Source: Gemmatimonadota bacterium
GTDB lineage: Bacteria > Latescibacterota > UBA2968 > UBA8231
Direction of reading: 5' to 3'
NCBI GenBank assembly: GCA_002712305.1
Contig: PATE01000006.1
Location: 8,364 to 29,556, forward strand
Length of the DNA: 21,193 nucleotides
Of the stretch, positions 15,762-21,193 are shown in pieces (the first letter of the stretch is position 1; each line of letters begins with the position of its first letter). The translations under genes and the position numbers were made by a program. A model generated the notes under the pieces. That model worked only from the letters and a program-made list of their open reading frames with translations, made no database searches and was not told the origin of the DNA.

Positions 15762-17057
15762 GTGCGCAGATCTGTCCTTCTCCCATCCCTGGGCAGTCTG
15801 TGCCTGGCGGCGGCGCTCGCCTTCGCACCTGGATGCTCAGGCTCGAATCAGGACGAGGATGGCAAAATCGTCCTTGAGTTCTGGACGATCGCCCTCGGCG
15901 ATGCCTTCGCCGACTATATCAACGGCATGATCGCCGACTACGAGGCACAGAATCCGGGAATCCGCGTAGAGTGGGTCGATGTAAGTGGCGGTGAGGTGGC
16001 GGAGAAGTTCATCGCCGCTCTTGTTGCCGGAGATCCACCCGATCTGGCCAACGTCTACGACCTGCCGCGGTTTCTTGAATACGATGTCCTGAGCAACCTC
16101 GACAGCCTCGTCACCGACGAAGAGCGCGATCGTTTTCTGCCAGGGTTCTGGCGAGGCATGGGTCAGTATCACGGGGCCAACTACGCCATCCCTTTCTATG
16201 CCAGCGTGAACATGATGTGGTACAACAAGGAGATCTTTGCCGCTGCCGGTCTCGATCCCGAGCGTCCACCGACGACGATGACCGAGATGCTGAAAATGGG
16301 GCGGATCATCCATGAGAGGACTGGCAAATACGGCGTCTCGTGGCGCCTGCATCCTTCTCTCGTCGGTCCCCCGTGGGTCCTTCTCCGGCAGGAAGGGATC
16401 TGGCCTTTGTTCAACGAGGACCGATCACGGACAACGATCAACAATCCACAGGCACTCGAGCTGTTTGAGAGCTGGATCGACGCCTACAAACATGGGGCGA
16501 TTCCACCAGAGGCCCTGGCCGCAGCATCCCGGGACGAGGTGAACTGGTTCATCGAGGGTCGTGCGGCGATGTTGCCGTTCTCGGGTGGCTGGATCACCCG
16601 CTACTTCGACAAGTCCTTCGAGGGCAAGGTGGGGATGACGTCCCATCCGCGTGGTGCTCTGGGTCTCGTACCGGGCACCAGTCAGGTCCTGGTCGTGCCG
16701 CGCATGTCACCTCACAGGGAGGAGGCTGTCGATTTCGGCTTGTTTGTGACCAGTCCAAGGTATCAGCTTGAGTTCTGTTCGTACGTCGCCATCCTGCCCA
16801 CGACCAAGGAAGCTGCGGCGGATCCGTTCTTCAGTCAGCCACCACGAAACATCTCCGACGAAGCCAATCAGATTTCCGCCGCCGATCTACCCAATTCCTT
16901 CGTCGCCGCCCCACCGGATACGAAGAGTTGGAGCCGAATGGAGGACATTCTCTATGAGGAATTCGCCAAGGCTATGGGCGGCCAGCAGTCTGCGCAGGAG
17001 GCACTGACGCGAGTCGAACGAAAGTGGAACCACCTGCTCCGGTTCACCGCCCTATGA
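15762..17057 (+). CDS. ABC transporter sugar-binding lipoprotein (MalE/UgpB-like, family 1)
   Basis: A GTG at 15762 gives 431 residues with a textbook lipoprotein signal, MRRSVLLPSLGSLCLAAALA then FAPGC (Cys25). The upstream extension from 15645 lies inside the DUF362 gene in another frame and is not used. The mature protein is a solute-binding protein of the carbohydrate class: LEFWTIALGDAFADYINGMI, ADYEAQNPGIRVEWVDVSGG, FIAALVAGDPPDLANVYD, YAIPFYASVNMMWYNKEIFA, AAGLDPERPPTTMTEMLKMG, FIEGRAAMLPFSGGW and RMSPHREEAVDFGLF. It captures the ligand outside the membrane for the two permeases that follow. It starts 5 bp after DUF362, suggesting reinitiation since no good Shine-Dalgarno is visible, and its TGA overlaps the next ATG (ATGA, 17054-17057). 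Confidence 0.93.
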   Translation: MRRSVLLPSLGSLCLAAALAFAPGCSGSNQDEDGKIVLEFWTIALGDAFADYINGMIADYEAQNPGIRVEWVDVSGGEVAEKFIAALVAGDPPDLANVYDLPRFLEYDVLSNLDSLVTDEERDRFLPGFWRGMGQYHGANYAIPFYASVNMMWYNKEIFAAAGLDPERPPTTMTEMLKMGRIIHERTGKYGVSWRLHPSLVGPPWVLLRQEGIWPLFNEDRSRTTINNPQALELFESWIDAYKHGAIPPEALAAASRDEVNWFIEGRAAMLPFSGGWITRYFDKSFEGKVGMTSHPRGALGLVPGTSQVLVVPRMSPHREEAVDFGLFVTSPRYQLEFCSYVAILPTTKEAAADPFFSQPPRNISDEANQISAADLPNSFVAAPPDTKSWSRMEDILYEEFAKAMGGQQSAQEALTRVERKWNHLLRFTAL

Positions 17058-17998
17058 ACAAGGGGATTCCCTTCAGACAGCGGGCCACACCGTACGCCTT
17101 CATCGCGCCAGGACTGCTGTTGCTGGCAACCTTCTTCACCTACCCGCTGCTCGATACATTCTGGCTGAGTCTTCACCGCTACAACATCTTCCATCCACCC
17201 GTGTGGGTGGGCCTCGACAATTTCCGTCGCGCCTTCGGGGACGAACTGTTCTGGCGGGTCACGGCCAACACTCTCCTCTACGCGGCGATGGTTGTGCCCG
17301 CACTGGTGGTGGTCTCTTTCATCCTCGCCCTGCTGGTCAATGCCACGATACGTGGCATCCGCATCTTCCGCACGGCGTACTACATCCCCGTGGTGACGTC
17401 CATTGTGGTTGCCGGTATTGCATGGAAGTGGCTCTACAATTCTGACGGGTTGATCAACGCACTGTTACGCGGGTTCGGAATCGCCGGACCTTCGTGGCTT
17501 GCCGACACCCGTGGTGTGCCTGCGGCACTGTTGAACTTCATCGGACTGGAAGTCACGTCCGGTTGGTTCTCCGAACCGTGTATCGCCCTCGCGTCGGTTG
17601 CGATGGTGACGATATGGAAGGCCTCACCGTACTACATGATCATCTATCTGGCCGGCCTGCAGGGCATCCCGCCCCAACTGGAGGAAGCGGCGAGGGTTGA
17701 TGGAGCCGGATGGTGGCGGATCGTCAGGCACATCACCATACCTTCGATTCAACCCTACACGCTGGTTGTGAGCATCATCGCTACCATTGGCGCCTTGCGC
17801 ACCTTCGGAGAGGTCTACGTGATGACCAGTGGCGGCCCGTTCCACCGAACGAATCTGCTCGCCTACTACATCTACACGCTCGGCTTCAAATACTTAGAGG
17901 TCGGGTATGCCGCAGCCGTGTCGCTGCTACTTCTCGTGTTGATTCTGGTCTTCGCCATCATCAATTTTCGCGTCGCCGGTGGCGACGCAGACAAATGA
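17054..17998 (+). CDS. ABC sugar transporter permease, MalF/UgpA type
   Basis: The ATG at 17054 overlaps the binding-protein stop (ATGA), giving 314 residues; the in-frame ATG at 17024 lies inside the upstream gene and is less likely. About six membrane segments: YAFIAPGLLLLATFFTYPLL, LYAAMVVPALVVVSFILALL, TAYYIPVVTSIVVAGIAW, CIALASVAMVTIW, LVVSIIATIGAL and VSLLLLVLILVFAIINF. The EAA loop that docks the ATPase is at about 210, EEAARVDGAGWWRIVRHITI followed by PSIQP. FTYPLLDTFWLSLHRYN and MTSGGPFHRTNLLAYYIY are typical of carbohydrate-uptake permeases. It pairs with the next gene to form the channel. Its TGA overlaps the first of three successive ATGA sites. Confidence 0.94.
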   Translation: MNKGIPFRQRATPYAFIAPGLLLLATFFTYPLLDTFWLSLHRYNIFHPPVWVGLDNFRRAFGDELFWRVTANTLLYAAMVVPALVVVSFILALLVNATIRGIRIFRTAYYIPVVTSIVVAGIAWKWLYNSDGLINALLRGFGIAGPSWLADTRGVPAALLNFIGLEVTSGWFSEPCIALASVAMVTIWKASPYYMIIYLAGLQGIPPQLEEAARVDGAGWWRIVRHITIPSIQPYTLVVSIIATIGALRTFGEVYVMTSGGPFHRTNLLAYYIYTLGFKYLEVGYAAAVSLLLLVLILVFAIINFRVAGGDADK

Positions 17999-18026
17999 GC
18001 GACGCCAAATGAGTGGCGGCAAATGA
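17992..18026 (+). repeat. 14-bp tandem repeat of a start/stop junction, encoding two 5-codon mini-ORFs
   Basis: The unit CAAATGAGCGACGC (17992-18005) is followed by CAAATGAGTGGCGG (18006-18019) and a third CAAATGA (18020-18026). Each copy carries ATGA. The permease TGA (17996-17998) overlaps ATG 17995; that frame reads MSDAK and stops at 18010-18012, overlapping ATG 18009; that frame reads MSGGK and stops at 18024-18026, overlapping ATG 18023 of the second permease. As 14 is not a multiple of three, each step changes frame. Confidence 0.85.
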
Positions 18027-18871
18027 CGCCCCTCGAACAACAAGCCTGGATGGGGCGCCTGCGTCTTACGGGCCAGTATGTCGCATTGATGGCTGTGGGC
18101 AGTGTCCTGTTGGCTCCCTTTGCGTGGCTGTTGGCCACATCTCTCAAGTCCGAGTCCGCCGATCTGTTTGCCTATCCGCCAGAGTGGATACCCGACCCGG
18201 TCGTGTGGGGCAATTTCGCCAAGGCCTGGTCCATCCTGCCCTTTCCGCTGTACATCTTCAACACCTTCTTCATCGCCATTACCACCGTCTTCCTCACGCT
18301 GTTCCTCTGCAGCCTCACGGGGTACGCCCTCGCCCGGATGCGTTTCCGCGGACGAAAGGTCATCCTCTACGCCGTGTTGGCCACGACCATGGTGCCCTTT
18401 CAGGTCCTTCTGATTCCCCTGTTCATCGTGACCCTTCGTCTGGGGCTCGTCGACTCGTATGCCGGTGTGATTCTGCCTGTCGCCGTGAATGCTTTTGGCA
18501 TCTTCCTCATGCGCCAGGCCTTCACGACGATCCCCATCGACCTTGAGGATGCTGCCCGCATTGATGGTTGTGGAGATTTCACGATCTATGCCAGAATCAT
18601 GTTGCCCCTGGTGAAGCCGGCTATGGCGACGCTGGCAGCTTTTACCTTTGTCGCTCAGTGGAATGACTTCCTCTGGCCCTTGGTGGTTCTCAAGAGTCGA
18701 GATCTGTATACACTTCAGTTGGGTCTTGCCAGTCTGCAGGGCGTGTTTGGTGTCAACTGGCGGTATATCTCCGCCGCGTCGATCATTGCCCTATCCCCAA
18801 CCATCGCTTTCTTCCTGCTCACGCAGCGATTCTTCACACGTGGGCTCGCGGCGGGTGCCGTCAAGGAGTAG
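18023..18871 (+). CDS. ABC sugar transporter permease, MalG/UgpE type
   Basis: 282 residues from the ATG at 18023. Membrane segments include YVALMAVGSVLLAPFAWLLA, LYIFNTFFIAITTVFLTLFL, VILYAVLATTMVPFQVLLIP, GVILPVAVNAFGIFLM and ISAASIIALSPTIAFFLL. The EAA loop is at about 174 (LEDAARIDGCGDFTIYARIM then LPLVKP). FAWLLATSLKSESADLFAYP and QWNDFLWPLVVLKS are typical of the MalG side of carbohydrate importers. No independent Shine-Dalgarno is apparent; translation seems to depend on the ladder of overlapping stop/start codons before it. No ATP-binding subunit follows, so an ATPase encoded elsewhere, such as a shared MsmK/UgpC-like protein, is presumed to energise the complex. Its stop is 6 bp before the CBM9-like gene, whose AAGGAG ribosome site lies in the last codons of this gene. 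Confidence 0.94.
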   Translation: MTPLEQQAWMGRLRLTGQYVALMAVGSVLLAPFAWLLATSLKSESADLFAYPPEWIPDPVVWGNFAKAWSILPFPLYIFNTFFIAITTVFLTLFLCSLTGYALARMRFRGRKVILYAVLATTMVPFQVLLIPLFIVTLRLGLVDSYAGVILPVAVNAFGIFLMRQAFTTIPIDLEDAARIDGCGDFTIYARIMLPLVKPAMATLAAFTFVAQWNDFLWPLVVLKSRDLYTLQLGLASLQGVFGVNWRYISAASIIALSPTIAFFLLTQRFFTRGLAAGAVKE

Positions 18872-19717: not shown

Positions 19718-21193
19718 CCGGAACAAAGCACCCAACGATCAAAGGCATGGTCAGGGTCCTCGCCGGAGGGGTAGTCTGGCTGATCGGTGCCGGCCTGATC
19801 AGTGCGGGCCTGGTCGGCTGTGAATCATCCCCCTCGACGTCGCCAGAGCGACCCGCCTCGGCCGATTGGGCCATTCACTTCACTCAGATCGCTGAAGCCA
19901 GCGGCCTTCGCCATCGCAACATCTCCGGAGACCCCGAGCAGCGGTTCATTGTCGAGAGCATCTCCGCCGGGGTTGCCGTCCTCGACGTCGATGGCGATGG
20001 CTGGTTTGACCTGTTCTTTGTCGGCGGCACACGCGCAACCGATCCGCCAGAGGCACCAAGCCACGAACTCTATCTCAATGAAGCCGGCCACGACGGTCGG
20101 CGCTTTCGTCGTGTCACAGACGAGTCGGGGCTGTCCACCCAGGGTTGGGGAATGGGTACGGCCATAGGTGACATCGACAACGATGGGGACCCGGATCTGT
20201 ATGTCACCTATTGGGGACGCGACCAACTGTGGCGCAATGACTCATCTGCTGGGAACGTTCGATTCACCGAGATCACCTCGGCGGCTGGAATTCAGAATGA
20301 CGACTGGGGTACTTCGGCCGCTTTTGCCGACATCGACGCAGATGGATGGCTCGATCTCTACGTGACCAACTACCTCGATTTCGACCTGAACGCCCCACCG
20401 GCTGACGGTAGTTGGTGTCACTTCAAGGAGGTGGAGTCCTTCTGCGGTCCAGAAGGGATTCCCGCCCAGAGCGACCGACTCTACCACAATCTCGGAGACG
20501 GTCGCTTTGAAGAGATCAGCCAGAGCAGTGGCATCGGGTCGATCTCCTATCCGGGCCTCGGTGTCCTGTTCACGGATATCGAGGACGACGGAGATCTCGA
20601 TATCTATATCGCCAACGATTCCGAGCCGAATTTCTTGTTTCGCAATGACAGTTCAGCCGAGGAGATTCGTTTCGAGCAGGTCGGCACTCGACTTGGCGTC
20701 GCCTACAGTGAAGGCGGGCTGGCCCAGGCCGGAATGGGCGTAGACGGTGGCGACATCGACAATGACGGAGACCGGGATCTGTATGTGTCCAACTTCTCCG
20801 ATGATGTGAACACGCTTTATGCGAACAATGGCCATGGATGGTATACCGACGCGACCTATGCTACCGGCATGGGTCGTGTCGTGCGACCATTCCTTGGCTG
20901 GTCGACAGCCTTTGCCGACTACGACAACGATGGCTGGCTGGACCTGTTCGTTGCCAACGGGCACGTCTACCCGGCGTTGCAGCAGGTTCCAGGTGGCCTC
21001 AGATACGCCCAGAGGAACCTCCTGTATCACAACGAGGCGGGACGTTTCACCGAGATCGGGCAAGACATTGGACTCCACCGTGTCAGTACGAGCCGCGCTG
21101 CGGCACCGATTGATTTCGACAACGACGGCGATCTGGACCTTGTCGTGGCCAATCTCAACGACACACCCAGCCTGTGGCGCAATGATGGCGGCA
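19714..21193 (+). CDS. CRTAC1/ASPIC-type FG-GAP (VCBS) repeat lipoprotein, 3' end outside window
   Basis: The frame is open to the window edge. It can start at GTG 19714, overlapping the upstream TGA, or at ATG 19747; the latter gives a cleaner lipoprotein signal, MVRVLAGGVVWLIGAGLISA then GLVGC (Cys25). Counting from 19747, seven calcium-type FG-GAP motifs are visible: DVDGDGWFD (80), DIDNDGDPD (142), DIDADGWLD (195), DIEDDGDLD (277), DIDNDGDRD (336), DYDNDGWLD (391) and DFDNDGDLD (456). FCGPEGIPAQSDRLYHNLGD is the hallmark of CRTAC1/ASPIC-UnbV proteins, so an ASPIC/UnbV domain may follow beyond 21193. Such proteins form a beta-propeller outside the cell and are thought to act in adhesion or ligand binding; no enzymatic role is known to me. 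Last visible gene of the DUF362-ABC operon. Confidence 0.9.
   Translation, partial: MTGTKHPTIKGMVRVLAGGVVWLIGAGLISAGLVGCESSPSTSPERPASADWAIHFTQIAEASGLRHRNISGDPEQRFIVESISAGVAVLDVDGDGWFDLFFVGGTRATDPPEAPSHELYLNEAGHDGRRFRRVTDESGLSTQGWGMGTAIGDIDNDGDPDLYVTYWGRDQLWRNDSSAGNVRFTEITSAAGIQNDDWGTSAAFADIDADGWLDLYVTNYLDFDLNAPPADGSWCHFKEVESFCGPEGIPAQSDRLYHNLGDGRFEEISQSSGIGSISYPGLGVLFTDIEDDGDLDIYIANDSEPNFLFRNDSSAEEIRFEQVGTRLGVAYSEGGLAQAGMGVDGGDIDNDGDRDLYVSNFSDDVNTLYANNGHGWYTDATYATGMGRVVRPFLGWSTAFADYDNDGWLDLFVANGHVYPALQQVPGGLRYAQRNLLYHNEAGRFTEIGQDIGLHRVSTSRAAAPIDFDNDGDLDLVVANLNDTPSLWRNDGG

Follow-up and report, generated by a model that had tools for sequence, protein, structure and literature searches.

The 21,193-nucleotide stretch of DNA analysed here (the window) comes from the 4.77-Mb genome (G000) of an uncultured Latescibacterota species, which we compared with Latescibacterota relatives that include a sister species (G001). 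The window carries two consecutive ABC sugar permease genes, one malF/ugpA-like and one malG/ugpE-like (Table 1), whose products matched UgpA (NF007852, E 2.2e-37) and UgpE (NF008210, E 1.7e-38), respectively, each under the curated cut-off. Upstream of malF lies a solute-binding-protein gene; its stop and the malF start share a single ATGA (17054-17057). The malF reading frame closes with GAC AAA TGA, and the junction that runs from its end to the malG start, GGTGGCGACGCAGACAAATGAGCGACGCCAAATGAGTGGCGGCAAATGACGCCCCTCGAA, contains three ATGA overlaps at a spacing of exactly 14 nt, so that the direct gap from malF to malG amounts to +24 nt and two predicted five-codon mini-ORFs stand between the genes. 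The initial annotation had described these three overlaps, the 14-nt repeat and the mini-ORFs MSDAK and MSGGK as a ladder of start/stop codons, with one restart step gained per unit; its coordinates, its frames and the ladder itself are borne out.

Table 1 Features at the malF/malG junction, in window positions
Feature	Position	Strand	Description
malF/ugpA-like ABC sugar permease gene	17054..17998	+	314 aa, BPD_transp_1 (PF00528); stop TGA 17996-17998
Perfect stem, 8 bp, GGU loop	17970..17988	+	GCGTCGCC-GGT-GGCGACGC; malF end, GC-rich
Repeat unit 1 (rung 1)	17992..18005	+	CAAATGAGCGACGC; ATGA 17995-17998, includes malF stop
Mini-ORF 1, MSDAK	17995..18012	+	ATG AGC GAC GCC AAA TGA; predicted, window species only
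Repeat unit 2 (rung 2)	18006..18019	+	CAAATGAGTGGCGG; ATGA 18009-18012
Mini-ORF 2, MSGGK	18009..18026	+	ATG AGT GGC GGC AAA TGA; predicted, window species only
Repeat unit 3 core (rung 3)	18020..18026	+	CAAATGA; ATGA 18023-18026 = malG start
malG/ugpE-like ABC sugar permease gene	18023..18871	+	282 aa, BPD_transp_1 (PF00528)

The array was detected independently by TRF (period 14, 2.5 copies, 85% matches, score 49). Every copy has the identical 7-nt core, CAAATGA, and the two spacers are unlike at 3 of their 7 positions; an intact core beside diverged spacers is weakly suggestive of constraint (3/7 vs 0/7, P about 0.1 by hand). A search of 737 kb of G000 gave one instance of three identical NNNATGA cores at exactly 14-nt spacing, and four first-order Markov shuffles gave none; three plain ATGA motifs at this spacing occur once in the same 737 kb against 0.25 expected; across the whole G000 genome the window array is the sole instance of the latter. 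Three identical cores so spaced are not expected by chance. The array spans 35 nt, far less than a read length, and its units have diverged from each other, in a genome that is a draft. Short arrays as such are not rare, given that a second 2.5-copy array in the window, a 15-bp repeat (CTGATCGGTGCCGGC) at 19780-19817, outscores the ladder in TRF with 55. This second array lies close to the start of an FG-GAP-like ORF.

Comparison with the sister species points to how the ladder arose. The MalG proteins of the two species are 95% identical (81% nucleotide identity for malG, with 132 synonymous and 15 non-synonymous codon differences), and the junction in G001 (locus L004), ...GGTGGGGATGCCGACAGATGACACCCCTTGAG, has one ATGA, so that the unit count, which the initial annotation had proposed to compare among related genomes, is one in the sister and three here. 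The window thus differs by exactly two extra units, a clean +28-bp insertion between a conserved malF end (VAGGDAD-K/R) and a conserved malG start (MTPLE). Of the first four codons that follow the malG ATG, three differ from their G001 counterparts only by synonymous changes (ACG/ACA, CTC/CTT and GAA/GAG). We conclude that coding sequence genuinely ends and begins at these two points and that position 18023 is a well-supported start. A single ATGA, the state of G001 today, was most likely ancestral, and two more 14-bp units then arose by local duplication. The end of malF immediately before the array (17979-17988, GTGGCGACGC) is similar to the inserted spacers GCGACGC and GTGGCGG, a likeness expected under local duplication, and the hairpin overlapping this segment (Table 1) may have favoured slippage; RNA folding around the junction gave nothing out of the ordinary (z -1.39). 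The mini-ORF is absent from the sister junction, MSDAK and MSGGK differ from each other, and the mini-ORF of another genus (g5, below) is different again, so that the conserved short ORF or peptide by which a regulatory leader peptide or uORF is recognized was not found at the malF/malG junction.

We read 13 orthologous malF/malG junctions besides that of the window. In all 13, the stop-to-start spacing lies between -4 and +7 nt, indicating that the family as a whole keeps the two genes close together. Three genomes (G018, G021 and G007) have TAATG or TAGTG (-1), six (G013, G016, G020, G022, G023 and G024) have TGAGATG or TAAGATG (+1 nt), and G012 has either TTGA (-4) or a GTG at +2. In G005 and G009, which belong to the other genus, a GTGA overlap is followed by a 4-codon mini-ORF, MSRA, and then by the RTGA of the MalG start, which makes two rungs 11 nt apart whose half-units are similar. 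The three-rung state is thus unique to the window species among the orthologs read, and another genus acquired a shorter ladder. In a wider set of 65 scored MalF/MalG loci, mostly from other phyla, we found one two-rung ladder and no three-rung ladder. Two marks of a coupled gene pair are present: a -4/-1 overlap at every rung and in G001, and tight spacing in the orthologs.

Coupling by termination and reinitiation at 4-nt (ATGA) and 1-nt (TGATG) overlaps is a known system (PMC6728339, PMC10666635). Every rung in the window is a standard -4 overlap of this kind, and the genes on either side code for subunits of a single complex; unlike such pairs, the window strings three overlaps together with two 5-codon ORFs between them, and its direct malF-malG spacing is +24 rather than -4. 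Very short ORFs that affect a following gene are also known. In E. coli, ORF27 has a stop that overlaps the start of iraD (PMC5574718), passing ribosomes on as we propose for the window; ORF27, however, is a leader under CsrA control that has an SD of its own (PMC5574718), whereas the window mini-ORFs lie between two coupled genes, have no SD and derive from a repeat. The two-codon minigene inside axe-txe likewise lies upstream of a second gene and alters translation in a frame- and distance-dependent manner, yet it has neither an overlap chain nor a tandem repeat, and its effect possibly stems from mRNA protection (PMC8708949). In the literature, we found no description of serial stop/start ladders made by tandem duplication, an absence that is not proof.

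We favour, with a probability of roughly 60%, the reading that the ladder arose when an ordinary 4-nt ATGA overlap underwent lineage-specific tandem duplication, and that a relay through its rungs likely keeps malF and malG coupled. A duplication across the overlap leaves malF whole up to its first stop and malG whole from its last start. It necessarily copies a start together with a stop, and any length of 2 mod 3 closes the resulting mini-ORFs automatically; 14 is such a length, so each further unit closes a 5-codon ORF whose stop lies in the next overlap. A ribosome stopping at 17996 would restart on the overlapping AUG, read five codons and stop, and after two such steps would start malG, every restart being held at -4. 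The relay would preserve a coupling that would mostly be lost over a bare 24-nt gap, perhaps at the price of a somewhat lower MalG yield, since with a per-restart efficiency e the output would follow e cubed instead of e. The initial annotation had likewise envisaged a ribosome restarting at each rung, which is plausible, although translation of the mini-ORFs is something we infer.

The case for such a relay rests on distance and on initiation signals. In two-reporter experiments, re-initiation in E. coli fell by 40-80% at +14 nt and was almost abolished at +38 nt, and in H. volcanii it was abolished at +22/23 nt (PMC10666635). The SD-like tetramers AGGA, GGAG and GAGG were sought upstream of all three rungs and none was present, which favours coupled over independent initiation. 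With a +24-nt gap, no such tetramer and the published loss with distance, a bare gap would be a poor way of reaching malG, and the tight spacing in orthologs, taken together with that loss, makes a stepwise relay the likeliest route to malG.

Whether ladders are enriched more generally was addressed in 837 close same-strand ORF pairs from 2.3 Mb (737 kb of G000, 1.2 Mb of G001 and 0.4 Mb of G018), in which ORFs were called mechanically and some pairs are spurious. Direct -4/-1 overlaps exceeded a permutation control (70 vs 50 in G000, 139 vs 95 in G001), an excess known for coupled genes. Two-rung ladders did not clearly exceed permutation (8 vs 7.0 in G000, 21 vs 16.8 in G001), nor did those of at least three rungs (3 vs 1.6 and 3 vs 2.4, respectively). 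Ladders as such mostly arise by chance, and the match to permutation rules out a genome-wide system.

These counts bear on the main competing account, in which the duplication is an inconsequential scar, MalG is initiated independently or reached by scanning over 24 nt, and ribosomes seldom or never translate the mini-ORFs. Ladders occur near chance frequency, tandem arrays touch or lie near the upstream stop in roughly 1-2% of close gene pairs here, and the mini-ORF peptides are unconserved. As two-rung ladders are no commoner than in the permutation control, selection for relays is not demonstrated, and ribosomes could come to 18023 without any relay, whether by independent initiation or directly by scanning. 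Against this stand the lack of an SD-like motif before 18023, the tight spacing at the junctions of relatives and the published distance dependence of re-initiation (PMC10666635), and we regard a scar of no consequence as possible but unlikely.

The initial annotation had further suggested that the ladder tunes the subunit ratio. As a selected dosage control, unit number would set MalG:MalF by multiplied restart efficiencies, perhaps switching through gain and loss of units. The difference between one unit in G001 and three in the window would suit this idea, as would the identity of the ATGA core in all copies and the two-rung GTGA-11 nt-RTGA step at the same junction in G005 and G009. Permease heterodimers of MalFG-type importers, however, need their subunits at about 1:1, which weighs against a dosage control, and 11 of the 13 orthologs have no ladder, none has three rungs, and two-rung ladders occur at about the permutation rate. 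Imperfect units are also poor substrates for frequent slippage: in place of the near-identical, readily slipping repeats of a VNTR-type switch, the junction has 2.5 copies at 85% with spacers that differ at 3 of 7 sites. There is no sign of the ladder as a tuned control, and we hold this suggestion to be quite improbable. Still less credible, to the point of being very improbable, is read-through of the TGA at 17996 to give a fused MalF-MalG protein. The annotation was right that the two genes share a frame and that the in-frame path from 17996 to 18023 (TGA GCG ACG CCA AAT GAG TGG CGG CAA ATG) contains no second stop, and right that each 14-nt step shifts the frame, by -1; three overlaps, however, lead back to the MalF frame, making the common frame and its open path an arithmetic by-product of rung number. 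In the sister species, with its single -1 overlap, malF and malG are not in a common frame, and no stop-suppression signal was identified, nor does anything else indicate read-through.

As it stands, the ladder is a duplication scar of one species, across which malF and malG translation is probably linked. If the relay works, it offers a natural experiment on ribosome hand-over through several serial mini-ORFs and bears on how post-termination ribosomes find the next start, by restarting in place or by scanning. It would also represent a simple way for overlapping gene pairs to separate in one step without uncoupling.

Ladders made by tandem repeats form a rare, distinct class, comprising the window and two loci of G001. 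At L290 (L290:9060-9110; G001:C20:109060-109110), an exact 20-bp duplication (TCAACGTCACATGAAGCAGG twice) across the ATGA overlap between an Amidohydro_2 gene and a Beta-lactamase-family gene produces a 7-codon mini-ORF, MKQVNVT. The equivalent locus of G012, 89% identical over 3.6 kb, has a single ATGA; this unduplicated state polarizes the change and shows that the process acted, again in one step, at a junction unrelated to malF/malG. At L186 (12423-12465, minus strand; G001:C29:272423-272465), a tandem repeat separating a UDG-superfamily gene from an unassigned ORF has three TGATG rungs at 14-nt spacing. Duplications of 2 mod 3 would yield a closed mini-ORF relay, those of 0 mod 3 an N-terminal extension and those of 1 mod 3 the wrong frame; all three ladders joining both genes by overlaps have lengths of 2 mod 3 (14, 14 and 20), in a sample that is far too small and was not drawn blind. 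That junctions generally evolve via self-preserving mini-ORF relays, tolerated mainly when ribosomes still reach the next gene and with unit number able to set subunit dosage, is in our judgement a doubtful extension.

We considered whether the 14-nt period is itself special and rejected this. Arrays of three ATGA motifs in genera g1 and g5 numbered seven at 14 nt, three at 13 nt and none at 11 nt, a weak excess because those at 14 nt mostly lie in leaders, intergenic stretches or antisense rather than at gene-gene overlaps and because TRF periods outside ORFs are broad. Matches at 15 nt were dominated by apparent in-frame coding repeats, and in the wider phylum the control pattern also gave many matches. 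A further survey call of three rungs, at L178, was set aside, as the true upstream stop is likely a TAG 5 nt before the first ATG, which makes it a leader repeat. This 14-bp tandem repeat (L178:2008-2043; G001:C29:102008-102043), CAAATGAGGAGACA/CAGATGAGGAGACG/CCCATGAG, lies in the leader of a PhyH-family gene, with an ATGA in each unit and a GAGGAG motif in the first two. In G009, several exact 13-14-bp tandem arrays contain ATGA (L197:1501-1532; L200, L203 and L206), and a 276-aa ORF has one of them, made of ATGACCCAGAATCC repeats, at its start codon. Elsewhere in the window genome, around position 6757 of L135 (G000:C17), a 38-bp repeat of 2.8 copies lies where a 468-codon open frame has its stop codon.
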